Assembly: GCF_037893185.1 (NCBI RefSeq)
Contig: NZ_CP140772.1
Location: forward strand, 4,836,001 to 4,900,000
From: Chitinophaga sp. 180180018-3
GTDB taxonomy: Bacteria; Bacteroidota; Bacteroidia; Chitinophagales; Chitinophagaceae
DNA length: 64,000 bases
Direction of reading: 5' to 3'
Both the position numbers and the translations under genes were made by a program. Below the pieces are notes generated by a model. It saw only the letters and a list, made by a program, of their open reading frames with translations. It searched no databases and was not told where the DNA came from. Each line of letters begins with the position of its first letter. The first letter of the stretch is position 1. Below are positions 15,013 through 57,545 of this stretch, piece after piece.

Positions 15013-16179
15013 TTATTTACCTGCTTCTTCTGTAGTACTCTTCCTTTCGTTGGTTGGTAATATGACAATCTTATTTCCGCTTAGTTGATAATGTACCCTG
15101 CTATACTCCAGGATTTGTAATGCCTGTTCCAGAGAAGACGACAGCGGTATGCTTCCCGTAAACAGGTCAGTTGGTTTATTTCCCTTGTACTCCACTTCCA
15201 CATTGTACCATCTGTGAAACTGATTCATGACGTGCTCTATATTAACACCGGAAAAGATAAAGTATCCGTTTTTCCAGCCCAACACCTGTTCGGTATTGAC
15301 ATGCCGGATCAGCGCTATTTTACCATCGTTGCCGACACGCGCCTGCTGTCCCGGGGCCAGTTGCTGCGAGTTTGTGCCATTATTGACCTGTACCGCTCCT
15401 TCCAGCAAGGTAGTGCTGACATTTCCTTCCTCACGGTAAGCGTTTATATTGAAGCTTGTGCCCAGTACTTTTATTTGAGTGGTATTATCGACATTCACGC
15501 CAAAAGGCATCGCTGCATTTTGTGCTACTTCAAAATATACTTCGCCTGTCATGGAAACAATGCGCTCTTTGCCCGTAAAGGAGGAAGGGAAAGTCAGCGA
15601 AGAACCCGCATTCAGCCAGGCTTTGGTACCATCTGGCAGCACCACGCTGTACTGGGTTCCGGCGGGCGTTTCTACCCGGTTATCGACCGGCATGCTTTCC
15701 CCGTTCGATTCATACACGAGCTGTCCTTTTGTATTATTAATGACCGTATTTCCCAACGTGGTAACCAGGCCATTGCCGGCGCTATCCAACACGATCGGTG
15801 GGCGGTTGCCTATAGTCAGTATAACATTTTTACCATTGCTTCTGCCGGATCCTGCTGTCTGATGAGCCAGCAAAGGTTCTTTGACAGAATGTTGATGGCG
15901 GTAAATGAAGTAAAATGCTCCGGCCAGCAGTATGGCAACAGCTGCTGCAGCACCCCGCCACGATCTGCGTATATGCACTACCGTTGTTTCAGCAGGTGGT
16001 ATTGCTTTCTCCTGCTGATGTGCAGCCCATGCGCTTTTCAGGTCGTCCTGCAGAGAAGATGCCAGCAGCCGTTCAAAAACCGGATCTTTCGAAGCATCCA
16101 GAAATTCTTCTAATTCCCGGGCAGAAAGTGACTGGTTTTTAAACCCTTCTATCAACTTTATAAAATCTGCTGCTGTCAT
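15013..16179 (-). CDS. FecR-family anti-sigma factor (PUL1)
   Basis: 388 residues. The N-terminal ~70 residues are the cytoplasmic sigma-binding part, one transmembrane helix (about 74-91, AAAAVAILLAGAFYFIY) follows, then the periplasmic FecR domain with GTQYSVVLPDGTKAWLNAGS and the RIVSMTGEVYFEVA strand, and a C-terminal DUF4974 domain that resembles and docks with the STN domain (GVNIEHVMNQFHRWYNVEVEY). It holds its cognate ECF sigma inactive or primes it until SusC reports substrate. It lies between the ECF sigma gene (103-nt gap) and susC. Confidence 0.92.
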   Translation of the reverse strand: MTAADFIKLIEGFKNQSLSARELEEFLDASKDPVFERLLASSLQDDLKSAWAAHQQEKAIPPAETTVVHIRRSWRGAAAAVAILLAGAFYFIYRHQHSVKEPLLAHQTAGSGRSNGKNVILTIGNRPPIVLDSAGNGLVTTLGNTVINNTKGQLVYESNGESMPVDNRVETPAGTQYSVVLPDGTKAWLNAGSSLTFPSSFTGKERIVSMTGEVYFEVAQNAAMPFGVNVDNTTQIKVLGTSFNINAYREEGNVSTTLLEGAVQVNNGTNSQQLAPGQQARVGNDGKIALIRHVNTEQVLGWKNGYFIFSGVNIEHVMNQFHRWYNVEVEYKGNKPTDLFTGSIPLSSSLEQALQILEYSRVHYQLSGNKIVILPTNERKSTTEEAGK

Positions 16180-51111: not shown

Positions 51112-51954
51112 ATGTCTACCGACCAGCAAATCAAAGATATGGTAAGGCAACAATACAGTGAAATTGCCTTACAGGACAAAGCCGACAACCAGTCATCCTG
51201 CTGTGGCTCCGGCTGCTGCTCCACTGAAGTGTACAATATCATGAGCGACGACTACGCCAGTATCGAAGGGTATAATGCCGATGCGGATCTGGGCCTGGGT
51301 TGCGGGCTGCCAACACAATTTGCCCGGATCAGGAAGGGCGATACTGTCATTGATTTAGGCAGCGGCGCCGGTAACGACTGTTTCGTGGCCCGTCATGAAA
51401 CGGGAGATACAGGGAAAGTAATCGGTATCGACTTCACCCCTGCTATGATTGAAAAAGCCAGGGCTAATGCGGAGAAACTGCATTACAACAATGTTGAGTT
51501 CCGCCAGGGCGATATTGAGAAAATGCCGGTAACGGCCGGCGTTGCGGATGTAATTGTCAGTAATTGTGTATTAAATCTCGTACCAAACAAGGACGGAGTT
51601 TTCAGGGAAATTTTCCGTGTGCTCAAAGCGGGCGGACATTTCAGTATGTCAGATATTGTGCTGGAAGGTAATCTGCCCACCATCATCCGGCAGGCCGCGG
51701 AAATGTACGCCGGTTGTGTATCCGGTGCGATTCAAAAGCAGGAATATCTGCAGTTGATTGCCAGCAATGGTTTTGTTAATATTACCCTGCAGAAAGAAAA
51801 AGTGATTGTTATACCAGATGATATATTAGCCAATTATCTTTCGGAAGATGAGATAAACCGGTTCCGATCTGGTGATACAGGCATTTACAGCATTACTGTT
51901 TATGCAGAGAAACCTCAGGGCATAGTTTGTTGCGCACCCGGTTGCTGCGACTAA
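51112..51954 (+). CDS. arsM: Arsenite S-adenosylmethionine methyltransferase
   Basis: 280 residues. It methylates trivalent arsenite with S-adenosylmethionine to volatile or less toxic methylarsenicals. Visible are the SAM-binding DLGSGAGND (81-89), GIDFTPAMI, and the three conserved arsenic-binding cysteines at about Cys64 (LGCGLP), Cys152 (NCVLNL) and Cys202 (AGCVSG). Extra Cys pairs sit at the N-terminus (CCGSGCC, 30-36) and C-terminus (CCAPGCC, 272-278). Two ArsR-like operators precede it, so induction by arsenite is likely. It lies about 11 kb from the ars operon at the window's right end, separated by insertion sequences and PUL4. Confidence 0.92.
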   Translation: MSTDQQIKDMVRQQYSEIALQDKADNQSSCCGSGCCSTEVYNIMSDDYASIEGYNADADLGLGCGLPTQFARIRKGDTVIDLGSGAGNDCFVARHETGDTGKVIGIDFTPAMIEKARANAEKLHYNNVEFRQGDIEKMPVTAGVADVIVSNCVLNLVPNKDGVFREIFRVLKAGGHFSMSDIVLEGNLPTIIRQAAEMYAGCVSGAIQKQEYLQLIASNGFVNITLQKEKVIVIPDDILANYLSEDEINRFRSGDTGIYSITVYAEKPQGIVCCAPGCCD

Positions 51955-52087: not shown

Positions 52088-52642
52088 ATGTCCACTTCTG
52101 AAGAACTAGGAGCGTTTTTATCCACGGGCGATAGAGATTTATTTAACGATTTATACAAACGGTATTGGGAGAAGTTATTCAATGTTGCTAACAAGCATCT
52201 GAAAGATGCAGTGGCAGCGGAAGACGTGGTGCACGATGTATTCCTGAGTTTATGGAACAACAGGAAGAAAGTTGCCATCAATCAATTCGAAAACTACCTC
52301 GTTACCGCAGTCAAATACCAGGTGCTAACACAAATCAGGAAGAAAGCTTATGCCCGGAAATATACCAGGGATGCTGCTATAGCTGACCCTCCGGAACTGG
52401 TGCCCGAAATCAGCAACGCGGTACACAACAGGAAAATACTGGAACTTGTATACAAAGAAATAGACCTGCTACCGGAAAAATGCAAGCTCATTTTTCAATA
52501 CAGCCGGGAAGAAGGAATGACTTCAAAGGAAATAGCGCAAATACTGAAAATCAGCAAGAAAACAGTGGATAACCAGATCCATAAGGCCCTGGAGCGGTTA
52601 AAGTTCAGACTTAAGCATATGCTGTTTACATTCCTGGGATAA
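52088..52642 (+). CDS. Orphan ECF RNA polymerase sigma factor
   Basis: 184 residues with region 2 (FNDLYKRYWEKLFNVANKHLKDAVAAEDVVHDVFLSLWN) and region 4 (LLPEKCKLIFQYSREEGMTSKEIAQILKISKKTVDNQIHKALERLK). The usual FecR/SusC partners are not downstream; instead the 3' end runs into a large inverted repeat carrying two insertion sequences. PUL4 (55671-62425), on the opposite strand, has a FecR but no sigma of its own, so this gene could be its cognate partner (inference). It ends 5 nt before the left arm of the inverted repeat. Confidence 0.9.
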   Translation: MSTSEELGAFLSTGDRDLFNDLYKRYWEKLFNVANKHLKDAVAAEDVVHDVFLSLWNNRKKVAINQFENYLVTAVKYQVLTQIRKKAYARKYTRDAAIADPPELVPEISNAVHNRKILELVYKEIDLLPEKCKLIFQYSREEGMTSKEIAQILKISKKTVDNQIHKALERLKFRLKHMLFTFLG

Positions 52643-52647
52643 CTCTT

Positions 52648-52708
52648 AAGAATTACGAATTAAAAATTACGAATTACGAATTAGAGCGAAGACCCAAGCG
52701 GATAATAT
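52648..52708 (+). repeat. Left arm of an ancestral 61-bp inverted repeat
   Basis: These 61 bp are exactly complementary to the right arm once the two insertion sequences are removed (right arm 54186-54235 joined to 55655-55665). The loop in the restored structure is CTACCTACA (52709-52717). The arms contain AATTACGAATT repeats typical of intergenic DNA in this group, then AGCGAAGACCCAAGCGG. Confidence 0.9.
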
Positions 52709-52769
52709 CTACCTACAATATGGAGTGAACCCAAAAGGTTAGACGTTTTTTAAAATTAAAGAGATTAAG

Positions 52770-53573
52770 TTAAATGGCCTGAGTTCGGTAATTTACAGGG
52801 CTCAGGCCATTTAATTTTAGTTTGATTCTATCGTTATTGTAGTAGCCAATATATTCTTCAATCTGCTGTTTTAAGACTGTAATAGAGTCAAATTTTTCAA
52901 GATAGAACAACTCTGTTTTTAGGACACTAAAGAAACTCTCCATAGCAGCATTGTCCAAACAATTACCTTTTCCAGACATGCTCTGCTCGATATTGCAGTC
53001 AATCAGCATCTTTTGATATTGTTTCATCTGGTATTGCCATCCCTGATCAGAGTGTAATATCAGTTTGCTATCGGTAGGCAGCCTGGGGAAGGCATTTTGA
53101 AGCATATCAATGATTGGCTGAAAGGTGGAGCGTTCCGATAGACTATAACTTACTATTTCCCCATTGTACAGATCCATTATAGGAGAAAGATAGAGCTTTT
53201 GATCTCCTACCATAAACATGGTTACATCTGTAACCCATTTTTGGCAGGGCTTCTCTGCTTTAAAATCCCTCTTTAGCAGATTGGGCGCGATTCTGCCCTG
53301 CTGCCCTTTATAAGATCTGTATTTTTTTACCCTGACCAGGCTTTTCAAATTACAGGCCCTCATCATTTTCAGTACTGTCTTGTGATTAATTTCCCTGCCT
53401 GATCGCCTCAATGCTGCTGTTATGCGTCTGTAGCCATATCTACCTTTATGCTGATGGTAAAGCGCTGTTATTGCTCCTTTTAATATGGCATGTTTATCAG
53501 GTACTGACACTTGTTTGAGATAGTAATAATAAGTACTTCGAGCCATCCCTGCCACCTTCAGCAGTAACTCCAA
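52770..53573 (-). CDS. IS3-family transposase OrfB (DDE integrase core)
   Basis: 267 residues beginning at a TTG. The catalytic DDE residues are Asp116 (VTDVT), Asp176 (HSDQG) and Glu212 (MESFF), with 35 residues between the last two, as usual. An HTH_21 domain (GRYGYRRITAAL) precedes the core. It lies in the -1 frame relative to OrfA, so it is made mainly as an OrfAB fusion by programmed frameshifting and the TTG start may be artificial. The reading frame is intact, so the element may be active. Confidence 0.93.
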   Translation of the reverse strand: MELLLKVAGMARSTYYYYLKQVSVPDKHAILKGAITALYHQHKGRYGYRRITAALRRSGREINHKTVLKMMRACNLKSLVRVKKYRSYKGQQGRIAPNLLKRDFKAEKPCQKWVTDVTMFMVGDQKLYLSPIMDLYNGEIVSYSLSERSTFQPIIDMLQNAFPRLPTDSKLILHSDQGWQYQMKQYQKMLIDCNIEQSMSGKGNCLDNAAMESFFSVLKTELFYLEKFDSITVLKQQIEEYIGYYNNDRIKLKLNGLSPVNYRTQAI

Positions 53574-53587
53574 TGAATAATGCGGCC

Positions 53588-54142
53588 TTAATTCTCTGAT
53601 GGCTCTTGCCGCTTGTTTTGATCCTGAGCGGCTTTTTCTTCCTGAATTAAGGCATCCAACTTTTTTAGGTAGGCATTCTCCGCCCGCAAATACAACAGCT
53701 CTGCCTCTAAAGCCGCTAGTTTGGCCTGTGTTGGATCTGTTACTGGTTTTTTACTCTTTTTCGATTTTTTTGTCATCGTCGAACTTTTTCGGCCTCTTGT
53801 CTCTTTTAACAACCCGGCAGCTCCCTCTCGTTCATACTTTTTAAGCCATCGACCAACTATATTATCCTGGGTAATACCAAAAATCATGGCTGTTTGCATT
53901 AAAGATAACCCCTTTTCAAACATATACTGGAGCACCTGGAATTTAAATGTTCCTGTATAATTACCTGGGCGCTGCTGTAATCCTGCTTGTCCATGAAGCT
54001 TATAAAGATTGACCCAACGGTGAATTGTGGTATCGGTGCCTCCGATCTTGCGGGCAGCTGAGCTAAATGTGTCATGACCTGACAGTACGGACTTAACTGC
54101 TATTTGCTTTTGTGCTAAACTGTATTTGATTCGCTTATCCAT
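53588..54142 (-). CDS. IS3-family transposase OrfA (helix-turn-helix)
   Basis: 184 residues with two HTH modules (AQKQIAVKSVLSGHDTFSSAARKIGGTDTTIHRWVNLY and SLMQTAMIFGITQDNIVGRWLKKYE) and a basic linker followed by a leucine-rich coiled coil (about 140-170) for multimerisation. It binds the element's ends. Near its 3' end, GAAGAAAAAGCC at about 53635 is a likely -1 slippage site; shifting there continues as KSRSGSKQAARAIREL into the OrfB frame without a stop. Confidence 0.92.
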   Translation of the reverse strand: MDKRIKYSLAQKQIAVKSVLSGHDTFSSAARKIGGTDTTIHRWVNLYKLHGQAGLQQRPGNYTGTFKFQVLQYMFEKGLSLMQTAMIFGITQDNIVGRWLKKYEREGAAGLLKETRGRKSSTMTKKSKKSKKPVTDPTQAKLAALEAELLYLRAENAYLKKLDALIQEEKAAQDQNKRQEPSEN

Positions 54143-54185
54143 AAAAATGCCCCCATAAAGTGTCTAACTTTTTGGGGGCACTTCA

Positions 54186-54235
54186 ATATTATCCGCTTGG
54201 GTCTTCGCTCTAATTCGTAATTCGTAATTTTTAAT
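54186..54235 (+). repeat. Right arm of the ancestral 61-bp inverted repeat, first part
   Basis: 50 bp of the right arm, cut by the IS4-family insertion; the remaining 11 bp are at 55655-55665. The last 11 bp (54225-54235, TAATTTTTAAT) are the target duplication of that insertion, with the second copy at 55644-55654. Confidence 0.9.
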
Positions 54236-54274
54236 CATTGGTGTCCGGGGAAAAAAAGAAGTCAATGAATAAAA

Positions 54275-54300
54275 ACGGGGACAATCGTCCCCGTTTTTTG
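54275..54300 (+). terminator. Terminator in front of the IS4 transposase gene
   Basis: ACGGGGAC-aatc-GTCCCCGT followed by TTTTTT. It lies inside the element, 35 nt before the transposase ATG at 54335, and would stop read-through transcription from outside, a known way insertion sequences limit their own expression. Confidence 0.85.
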
Positions 54301-54334
54301 GTATTTTCAAGTTACCACACTTAAAAAAAGTACC

Positions 54335-55552
54335 ATGAGTAAAGGTATATATTTTACCGGACAGCCGATATTTAGTCAGTTACTTTCTTTTATTCCCAGA
54401 CCGCTGGTGAACAAATTAGCCATTCACTATCAGGCAGATCGTTGCTGTAAGCGATTCAAGACCTATGATCATCTGGTGACGCTACTTTACAGTATAATTA
54501 ATCAGTGTAGCTCCTTGCGGGAGGTTACTACAGGCATGCTGGCCTGGGAGCACCGACTAGCCCATCTGGGCATCACCCATCCGCCCAGAAGGAGTACTAT
54601 TTCTGATGCCAGTATACGTAGAGGTACAAAAGTTTTTGAAGCCATCTACCTGGAACTATTAAAGCGGTATGGACAATTTTTACCGGACAGCCGGCCGGCA
54701 AAACTGGCATCAAAACTTTATCTGTTTGATTCTACCACTATCAGCCTGTTTCAGCAGATATTAAAAGGGGCAGGTAAATCTGATATGGATGGAAGACGCA
54801 AAGGCGGTATTAAAGTACACACTTTAATGAGAAGCGATCAGGATGTACCCTGTATGGTTAGATTCAGCGCTGCTGCCAAAGCTGATGTTTCCTTTCTTAA
54901 AAAAGTGGTGTTACCTGCCGGGTCAATCCTGGTATTTGATAAAGGATACAGAGACTATAGTGCTTATAACACTTTGGATGAAGGAGCCATTACATGGATA
55001 ACCCGTAACATCGATAGTTCCATTCATACAATTATCGAAGATCGTCCCATCAGTGAGTCGCAGGTAAACAAGGGGGTTTTAGCTGACCGGGAAATTGAGT
55101 TAGGACATAATCATAATAAAAAAAATGCTAAGGTAAAGGCCCGACTTATTACTTATAAGGACAAAAAAAGCGGCCATATCTTTGAATTTATAACTAATGA
55201 TTTTCATCTCAAACCTGCTACTATAGCTGATTGTTATCATAAAAGGTGGCAGATTGAATTATTATTTAAGCGGCTAAAGCAAAATTATCCCCTTAGATAC
55301 TTTCTGGGAGATAGCCCCAATGCTATTAAAATACAAATCTGGTGTGTAATGATTGCTGATCTTATTCTTAAAGTAATCAGCTCTAACTACAAATGCAAAT
55401 GGTCCTTTTCTAATCTGGTTAGTATGGTCAGGCTACATATGATGACTTATATGAACCTTAAAGCCTTTATCACGGCGGCCGAAAAAAGTCTTTTAGACAG
55501 GTTCAATCAGTATAAAGCTAAAGATTCTCCGCTTTTGCTATTTGTCACATAG
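54335..55552 (+). CDS. IS4-family DDE transposase
   Basis: 405 residues. Catalytic residues are Asp132 (FDSTT), Asp202 (FDKGYRDY) and Glu308 in the YREK signature (Tyr301, Arg304, Glu308, Lys315; YHKRWQIELLFKRLK). The N-terminal domain (about 1-110) with the KRFKTYDHLVTLLYSII stretch is the DNA-binding DUF4372-type part. It is intact and probably active. Confidence 0.95.
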   Translation: MSKGIYFTGQPIFSQLLSFIPRPLVNKLAIHYQADRCCKRFKTYDHLVTLLYSIINQCSSLREVTTGMLAWEHRLAHLGITHPPRRSTISDASIRRGTKVFEAIYLELLKRYGQFLPDSRPAKLASKLYLFDSTTISLFQQILKGAGKSDMDGRRKGGIKVHTLMRSDQDVPCMVRFSAAAKADVSFLKKVVLPAGSILVFDKGYRDYSAYNTLDEGAITWITRNIDSSIHTIIEDRPISESQVNKGVLADREIELGHNHNKKNAKVKARLITYKDKKSGHIFEFITNDFHLKPATIADCYHKRWQIELLFKRLKQNYPLRYFLGDSPNAIKIQIWCVMIADLILKVISSNYKCKWSFSNLVSMVRLHMMTYMNLKAFITAAEKSLLDRFNQYKAKDSPLLLFVT

Positions 55553-55654
55553 GGGCCTGGAACTTTAAATATCCCTTTTTTGAATCTTTTATGCCCGTAA
55601 AACCTAGGCTTTTTGATCAAGCCTAAGTTTTACCGGACACCAGTAATTTTTAAT

Positions 55655-55665
55655 TCGTAATTCTT
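55655..55665 (+). repeat. Right arm of the ancestral inverted repeat, last part
   Basis: TCGTAATTCTT, the final 11 bp of the right arm, directly after the second copy of the IS4 target duplication (55644-55654). It ends 5 nt before the susD stop codon region at 55671. Confidence 0.88.
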
Positions 55666-55670
55666 TATCC

Positions 55671-57545
55671 CTACCACCCTAAATTCTGCACCAGCTTCCC
55701 TCCTCCTTTATCTATTTCTGACTGGGGAATTGGCATGAGATAATGCCGGTCCAGGAATACACGGGTTTGTATAGTAGTGAGGCTGTAAAATACGGCAACG
55801 CCTGCTGCCTCGCTGTTAGGATCAAGTCCGGTAGCCTGTAGCTCAGCTGTAGTCGGGCGGGCATTCATACCATGTACACTTCCATTGTCCACACTCCTGG
55901 CAATCAGCCAGCGGCGCACATTCCAGAAGCGTTTTCCTTCAAAGGCAAATTCCACGCGCCACTCATTTTGAATCCGCTTCCGCATTCCGGCCCTGGTGTT
56001 ATCGTCTGTGCCGTTCACTGGCAATGCGGGCATGGATACACGGGCTCTTACCTTATTGATGGCATCATACACGTCCTGGCTGGGAGCATCCAGGTATTCA
56101 TTCATGGCTTCGGCATAAATAAGATAAATTTCAGCCAGCCGGATGATTGGAAAATTCCTGTTACCGTTCCCTGCTCCCCGGAGGTTTACACCCGGATCAC
56201 ACCATTTCCTCATGTTATAGCCGGTTTCGCAATTGGTTCCTGATTTGGGCCAGCCATCGGAAGCGCCTCCATTGTTTCCAAAATATGCATATTTTAACGG
56301 CCGTCTGTGGTTGGCAGAATCCCACAGAGCATACTGAAAATTGATACTGGCATAAAACCGCGGATCCCTGTTTTTATACATATTGGAAACGCTCTTTGCC
56401 TGCCTGAAAGCTTTTCCATCCCATAGCGGGCCATCCCAGAAGCCGTCTTTGACATAGCCGGAATTAGGATCTGTAATGGGTAATCCGTTTTTCATTTCAT
56501 ACGCATCCACCATTTCCTGCAACACGCTGAATTTACCATATCCTCCGGCAGACTGGGCATCCTGTCCGTTCGGCTGAACAACCTGATCCAGATCCCTGGT
56601 AGAGCCCAGTAACAAGGGCAAAATGGTCTCTTTATACTCCCGTGAGAAGAACAGACGGGCGTAGTTGTCGATAGGATTCGTTGGATTGGGGTTATTTAAC
56701 GTATATACGTTCATATCCAGCACCGCTTTTGCTGCGTCGGCGGCCTTCTTCCATTTTTCTTTGTTGTAGGCTTGCGGAAAAAGCTGTGTTCCATCCGTAT
56801 TTTTTATGCCCGCATACATGGTATTGCCATTCAACAAAGGGCTGGCTGCATATAGCCATGTAATAGCCTTTAATGCCATGGCCGCACCGCGGGTAATACG
56901 CCCTGTTTCCCCGGGATTATCGGTGTAGTCAACGGGCAAAGTGGGTGCTACCTGGTCCAGTTCCGTTACTATATAATTTACAACATCATCAACCGGCTTC
57001 CTGATGTTCAGTTCATCAGGTACTTTCGCACTTACATCTGTAACATCATCTCCCAGCAAAGGAACCGGGCCATAGGCACGGAGCAGCTCAAAATATAATT
57101 TGGCTCTGAGAAAACGTACTTCCGCCTTATACTGGGGAATCCGGGTACTATAATAATCTGCCCTGTCTTGCGGGATAGGAGTTTTATCGATATTCTTCAG
57201 AAAAATATTAGCCCTCCTGATAAACTGCCAGGCATTTCCCCAATTATCGAGGGAGTTATCTGTTGGCCCCCATGCTCCGGAATTAAACTTCAGTTCAGGA
57301 ACGTTTTCCCAGTGGTTCTTGCATTCGTCCGTACACGCAGCAAGGGTAGTGTTGGTATAAATATTTGTGGAACTTGTATTTAATGACGTATACATATTGG
57401 CCCAGGCCCGTTCCGCCGTGTTAATATTGTCGTAAATATCTTTCTCAGTAACTACCTCCTTGGGTACAACATCCAGATATTTCTTACAGGATATTACTGT
57501 TATGCAAAACAGCAGTAGTCCGTGGAATAATAATTTGCGCATCAT
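55671..57545 (-). CDS. SusD/RagB-family outer-membrane lipoprotein (PUL4)
   Basis: 624 residues, lipobox VISCKK (Cys20), then LDVVPKEVVTEKDIYDNINTAERAWANMYTSLN. SusD motifs include EVRFLRAKLYFELLRAYGPVPL and EWRVEFAFEGKRFWNVRRWLIARS. It forms the last gene of the minus-strand PUL4 (fecR-susC-susD) and is intact, unlike susC upstream. Confidence 0.93.
   Translation of the reverse strand: MMRKLLFHGLLLFCITVISCKKYLDVVPKEVVTEKDIYDNINTAERAWANMYTSLNTSSTNIYTNTTLAACTDECKNHWENVPELKFNSGAWGPTDNSLDNWGNAWQFIRRANIFLKNIDKTPIPQDRADYYSTRIPQYKAEVRFLRAKLYFELLRAYGPVPLLGDDVTDVSAKVPDELNIRKPVDDVVNYIVTELDQVAPTLPVDYTDNPGETGRITRGAAMALKAITWLYAASPLLNGNTMYAGIKNTDGTQLFPQAYNKEKWKKAADAAKAVLDMNVYTLNNPNPTNPIDNYARLFFSREYKETILPLLLGSTRDLDQVVQPNGQDAQSAGGYGKFSVLQEMVDAYEMKNGLPITDPNSGYVKDGFWDGPLWDGKAFRQAKSVSNMYKNRDPRFYASINFQYALWDSANHRRPLKYAYFGNNGGASDGWPKSGTNCETGYNMRKWCDPGVNLRGAGNGNRNFPIIRLAEIYLIYAEAMNEYLDAPSQDVYDAINKVRARVSMPALPVNGTDDNTRAGMRKRIQNEWRVEFAFEGKRFWNVRRWLIARSVDNGSVHGMNARPTTAELQATGLDPNSEAAGVAVFYSLTTIQTRVFLDRHYLMPIPQSEIDKGGGKLVQNLGW

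Follow-up and report, generated by a model that had tools for sequence, protein, structure and literature searches.

The window analysed here is a stretch of 64,000 nucleotides of Chitinophaga sp. 180180018-3 (genome positions 4836001–4900000), whose genome is a single contig of 8.13 Mb. At window positions 52648–55665 lies a long palindrome split by two insertion sequences (IS), one of the IS3 and one of the IS4 family, between the convergent stops of an ECF sigma factor gene (52088–52642, + strand; open reading frame (ORF) with Pfam sigma-70 regions) and a SusD-family gene (55671–57545, − strand; ORF with Pfam SusD_RagB). Removal of both elements left two arms of exactly 61 bp, 100% complementary, around the 9-nt loop CTACCTACA; pairing ends at the next base pair outward, which is T-T. 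The left arm (52648–52708, +), with outer GAATTAC-type heptads and the inner core GAGCGAAGACCCAAGCGGATAATAT, is followed by the loop (52709–52717, +) and the first ATA of the IS3 target duplication (52718–52720, +). The right arm is in two pieces, 54186–54235 and 55655–55665. Its inner 50 bp (+) start with the second ATA (54186–54188) and end in the first of the two IS4 duplication copies (54226–54235), and beyond the IS4 element the segment 55645–55665 (+) holds the second duplication copy (55645–55654) and the outer 11 bp of the arm. Five nucleotides separate the palindrome from each stop (52642 and 55671). Both the arm-loop-arm structure and its position between the two stops had been proposed in an earlier note on this DNA, and both were borne out, the former by the excision itself. 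An uninterrupted copy at genome position 436503 has the identical 9-nt loop, which supports the reconstruction. Since no other inverted repeat scoring at least 25 was present in the window as it stands, and none in 1.6 Mb of Markov sequence, the palindrome is not a product of chance.

The IS3-family element occupies 52721–54185 on the − strand; these bounds, given in the earlier note together with the ATA duplication, were correct. It encodes OrfB, an IS3 transposase with an rve integrase core (52770–53573, −), and OrfA, a helix-turn-helix protein (53588–54142, −), both identified by Pfam and NCBIfam. Matches to Pfam rve, HTH_21, HTH_28 and HTH_Tnp_1 and to NF033516 (321 bits for OrfB) place the proteins in the IS3 family. 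The window copy has the inverted ends TGGAGTGAACCCAAAAGGTTAGAC and TGAAGTGCCCCCAAAAAGTTAGAC, and the TG...CA ends of the family are present. Judged by the positions of its copies, the element is attracted to hairpin tips. All five full copies in this genome were located at the tips of five different palindromes, with duplications of ATT, ATA, ATTA, ATT and ACC. Both half-stems and the 3–4 bp duplication were kept at 5/5 of these sites, which is not the stem-loop replacement of the IS1272 type. As a separate observation, at genome positions 4974187–4974224 (L072) two IS3-type ends face each other with no transposase between them and so form a short inverted repeat, possibly a remnant.

The search for relatives of the IS3 element covered 79 genomes of the genus, 294 of the family and 395 of the phylum; loci found in both genus searches were counted once. 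Twenty two-sided sites of the IS3 clade, from 12 Bacteroidota genomes, were scored for a hairpin with the insertion point in its loop. The tip scores were 57, 50, 45, 48 and 29 in the own genome. Elsewhere they were 6 in G060, 11 in G052, 8 in G048, 16, 17 and 13 in G028, 11 in G054, 13 in G561, 21 in G533, 10, 13 and 18 in G698, 7 in G652, and 4 in each of G300 and G185. Scores of at least 8, 10 and 12 were reached at 16, 15 and 12 of the 20 sites, against a background of 1.5%, 0.29% and none, respectively, at 16000 positions in the same flanks. The target stems were largely unrelated between genomes and included terminators with runs of A and T in G028, G561, G533 and G698. Outgroup IS3 elements of the same genus (33–35% identical) scored 3–5, with hairpin tips at 0/7 sites, and formed a separate clade with a support of 100/100; the exceptions in G300 and G185 fell within the hairpin-targeting clade of the tree. 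The outgroup elements L142, L143 and L144 were included in the tree only. Loci with one flank missing or a partial element were kept outside the 20 sites: L135, L147, L154, L159 (G013), L148 (G052), L140, L150 (G051), L338 (G498) and L141 (G044). If L159 with L135 and L140 with L150 each represent one site split between contigs, their hairpin scores are 15 and 36.

The IS4-family element (54236–55644, +) is one of six full copies in the genome and carries a single-ORF DDE transposase at 54335–55552 (+; DUF4372 and DDE_Tnp_1, by Pfam and NCBIfam, including NF033592). Its end had been placed at 55643 and its target repeat given as 11 bp; we found the end at 55644 and a duplication of 10 bp, AATTTTTAAT, at 54226–54235 and 55645–55654. 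The eleventh base belongs to the end of the element, because it differs from the target in four of the six full copies; at the remaining two (L050 and L051) the target would carry the same base. A 10-bp duplication was found at all 11 copies, that is, the six full ones and five of a sister element with a 46% identical protein, and the passages of PMC2266710 that deal with the IS4 family give a duplication rule of about one helix turn. All 11 duplications had the form AATTNNNAAT or its complement, with the consensus AATT-N3-AAT. In the arms this target is supplied by two neighbouring heptads. Eight of the 11 copies were inserted in arms of long palindromes (the one in the window and seven others), in the outer arm and not at the apex. 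As for the other three, L055 lies close to the loop of a short palindrome made of heptads (apex score 12), L076 in a heptad tract without a core, and L054 beside an IS4 remnant. The earlier note had suggested that the hairpin attracted both insertions. This applies to the IS3 element, with 5/5 own copies and 15/20 clade sites, but not to the IS4 element, which follows AATT-N3-AAT in 11/11 cases. Hairpin targeting by the IS4 element was rejected on the grounds of this sequence target, even though L055 does lie near a loop. About seven target places occur in the window outside the palindrome, so the palindromes make up a large share of the IS4 targets but not all of them.

A relative of the IS4 element in G035 was found by eye in AATT heptad tracts at 9/9 copies (L165, L168, L171, L173, L175, L177, L179, L181 and L183); for two of these copies the tract is a long tandem array of AATTAAG. 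Another relative, L170 of G051, uses a variant target that departs from AATTNNNAAT. Partial kin of the transposase, 76% identical, occurs in Chitinophaga solisilvae, and kin is present in other genomes of the genus. Two smaller features of the elements were recorded: at genome positions 5736059–5737610 (L054, L056) a full IS4 copy adjoins a short remnant of that element with an internal deletion, and each of the two elements in the window has a hairpin near one end (52767–52817 and 54271–54298), which might restore termination after insertion.

The earlier note had supposed that the palindrome belongs to a repeat family, and the genome contained many copies. DNA search yielded 73 pieces, mostly paired head-to-head. 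A covariance model built on 36 aligned copies gave 2650 candidate matches, the best 150 of which correspond to 80 distinct places, so that the family has at least 80 places in this genome; 76 were analysed (7040018, 5092436, 3446788 and 772687 were omitted). Empty, uninterrupted copies are present among them. The median arm length was 49 bp and the whole hairpin was about 120–130 bp. Perfect palindromes accounted for 29 of the 76 copies, and 117 of 3624 pairs were mismatched. For the 52 copies whose arms reach 45 bp or more, the mean identity of the inner 45 bases was 97% between the arms of one copy and 72% between copies. In the alignment of 36 copies, 139 cells were changed on both sides vs. 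39 in shuffles. Arm-to-arm copying and selection on pairing would each be a sufficient cause of this likeness. The outer arms consist of degenerate heptads, with an identity of 0.79 at lag 7, 0.82 at lag 14 and at most 0.39 at any other lag to 15. Folding of two intact copies as single-stranded DNA gave the hairpin (z −21.8 and −13.4). Of 30 genomes sampled from the genus, 18 had matches to the family model with E ≤ 1e-5, this genome among them. REP and REPIN sequences are short palindromes of about 20–40 bp. A REP family with its own RAYT was considered and rejected: the median arm exceeds the REP size, and Y1-type (RAYT) transposases (PF01797) had no match in this genome, while 5 of 14 control genomes matched. 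Three loci gave no match to a known RNA family at the gathering score. At L100 of G060, the IS3 relative is inserted in a palindrome with arms that differ by exactly one heptad, which suggests that gain and loss proceed by whole heptads.

Gene context was taken from a simple ORF caller, with the other gaps in the same loci as the comparison set. The 76 copies were distributed over 42 convergent, 29 codirectional and 4 divergent gaps, and one was overlapped by a called ORF; the 83 other gaps comprised 7 convergent, 51 codirectional and 25 divergent ones (Fisher 1e-10). In four copies (3225293, 3305328, 6755379 and 8046869) one of the neighbours is an IS4 element. The stop of the facing gene was at most 30 nt away in 72/76 copies, as in a stable hairpin just past a stop codon, the mark of an intrinsic terminator, and this distance held at both stops in 35 of the 42 convergent copies. 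A terminator scan, run at the interrupted window palindrome only, revealed no terminator-like site there, and AT-rich heptads follow the core. ERIC-type sequences of enterobacteria are likewise long dispersed intergenic palindromes; unlike them, the present family has heptad arms, arms that stay matched within diverging copies, and a terminator position at stop codons.

At the orthologous junction of four relatives (G040, G039, G014 and G059; sigma factor 86–89% and SusD 87–94% identical over the aligned part), we found a different GC-rich terminator-type hairpin, and the site was free of insertion sequences. The earlier note had expected empty copies of the palindrome in relatives; none was found at this site in the four. 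When 86 own sites were searched against a contig of G014, 22 had some match and 10 had both flanks adjacent. Nine of these 10 junctions were read by eye: six held terminator-type hairpins, two held AGCAGAAAGC-heptad palindromes of another family, and one, a divergent gap, held nothing evident. One of the six, site 3191034, is a heptad tract and not a palindrome in the own genome. From the hairpin types at the window junction and at these G014 junctions it follows that palindromes and terminators can share one slot, and we infer that one replaces the other at such shared slots. In 1.6 Mb of G014 we detected 31 inverted repeats of score at least 25 vs. 0 in the Markov control, mostly of other families as judged by eye; these too were commoner in convergent gaps, with 15 in convergent, 12 in codirectional and 4 in divergent ones vs. 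8, 52 and 19 for other gaps. On contig C11 of G014 (L258–L337; e.g., 862968, 398926 and 300787 of the joined stretch), inspection by eye showed three or more further palindrome families, of AGCAGAAAGC, AGCGAATTTTAAGCCCGC and CACGCAAAGGAGC types, some with a core resembling that of the window family.

Taken together, we consider it probable, from the compared insertion sites, that this IS3 clade targets the apices of hairpins or cruciforms and uses gene-end hairpins as landing pads, which permits insertion without breaking a gene. The palindrome would be a gene-end hairpin element placed between two convergent stops, a position taken by a terminator-type hairpin in four relatives; like that hairpin, it probably ends or protects transcripts on both strands. 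The transposase of the clade would select hairpin or cruciform apices in DNA for insertion, usually with a 3–4 bp duplication and largely regardless of the stem sequence. The IS4 element would have arrived independently, reading the AATT-N3-AAT offered by two adjacent heptads of the arm. Placement of the IS3 element at the apex is established by its sites; recognition of the structure is what we infer from them.

Several points weigh against this interpretation. The 16000 background positions are mostly coding sequence, and the palindromes have no obvious U tract. No hairpin was present at L186 of G300 or at L187 of G185, where the element is shortened, and L342 of G652 is weak, with a score of 7. 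At L341 of G698 the insertion is 9 nt off the apex, and L100 of G060 scores only 6 ungapped, although a palindrome emerges once a gap of one heptad is allowed. A 3-bp duplication was absent in G052, G060, G054, G652 and at L344 of G698, and in G054 and the groups outside the genus the element ends were set by a 12-nt rule. The recognised feature could be DNA structure, RNA or a host protein.

For the palindromes alone, it is possible, though rather unlikely, that they represent a non-autonomous mobile element with gene ends as its insertion sites and no host function. Many dispersed, related copies with cores shared within the genome agree with this, as does the occurrence, at one and the same site, of a palindrome in one species and a different hairpin in another. 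On the other hand, neither terminal repeats shared with the transposons of the genome nor a target duplication was noticed, the genome has no Y1-type transposase, and insertion alone would leave the old terminator alongside, whereas the window palindrome fills the gap between the stops. As to the IS3 element, we regard as improbable a coupling to transcription, in which the transposase meets a terminating RNA polymerase or an RNA hairpin and does not read DNA structure. Many targets are terminators or gene-end palindromes beside stops, but the insertions lie near the symmetry axis for stems from 8 to 61 bp, and a polymerase ruler should hold the distance from the release point. Slightly less credible still is survivorship, by which the IS3 element inserts widely and only harmless gene-end insertions persist, hairpins being merely common there. 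Palindromes and terminators do occupy gene-end gaps, where insertion is least harmful; however, the insertions are at the apex and not scattered across stem and spacer. The product of the chances of falling in the loop ± 3 nt within the hairpin footprint was 1.4e-9 for 15 sites, a descriptive figure as the sites were chosen for a tip hairpin, and the outgroup elements of the same genus were at hairpins in 0/7 cases. It is very unlikely that the transposase reads a conserved core of the palindrome family in a REP-like manner, since the GCGAAGA...AGCG-type core common to the five own targets is not shared by the clade targets in G028, G052, G048, G054, G561, G533 and G698.

Apex targeting of gene-end hairpins by the IS3 clade has close parallels. 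ISPsy8 of Pseudomonas syringae, also of the IS3 family, has 5/5 copies on the axis of symmetry of a predicted REP hairpin, a 3-bp duplication and a gene-end site discussed as safe in the relevant sections of PMC1525189 (Tobes and Pareja); as described there, it always uses the same REP sequence and the same base, whereas here the stems vary between genomes and include ordinary terminators. Insertion at the apex of REPs is therefore already published, and independence from the stem sequence is the new part. The same sections cite IS1397 and ISKpn1, IS3-family elements that target intergenic palindromic units of E. coli and Klebsiella, as experimentally shown; these are described as specific for defined units, in contrast to the unrelated stems used by the present clade. 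IS1272 of Staphylococcus also takes stem-loops of unrelated sequence as targets, but, according to the pertinent part of PMC5678879, it replaces the stem-loop without duplication, whereas the present IS3 elements break the hairpin at the apex and leave both halves in place, in most cases with a duplication of 3–4 bp. ISRm22, an IS4-family element in Sinorhizobium REPs, likewise has copies in repeated palindromes, but at the palindrome axis as far as PMC1525189 describes it, unlike the present IS4 element, whose place in the outer heptads is determined by AATT-N3-AAT. No IS3 clade that splits hairpins of unrelated sequence, including terminators, at their apices turned up in the open-licence literature searched.

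Structure-based target choice, if true, would explain the spread of insertion sequences without gene breakage, and the clade offers a DDE transposase for direct tests of hairpin targeting. The palindromes suggest a turnover of gene-end hairpins between close species, which strain comparison could catch underway. A wider proposal, which we put forward tentatively and at somewhat less than even confidence, is that a Bacteroidota IS3 clade reads DNA structure and not sequence, capturing the extruded apex of hairpins or cruciforms so that terminators genome-wide serve as safe harbours, and that in some Chitinophaga lineages species-specific heptad palindromes are taking the place of terminators, one hairpin for another, with arm-to-arm copying keeping the two arms of each alike. 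The ECF sigma factor gene is preceded, at 51112–51954 of the window, by a gene for a SAM-dependent methyltransferase; a homologous stretch was present in most of the genus genomes searched.

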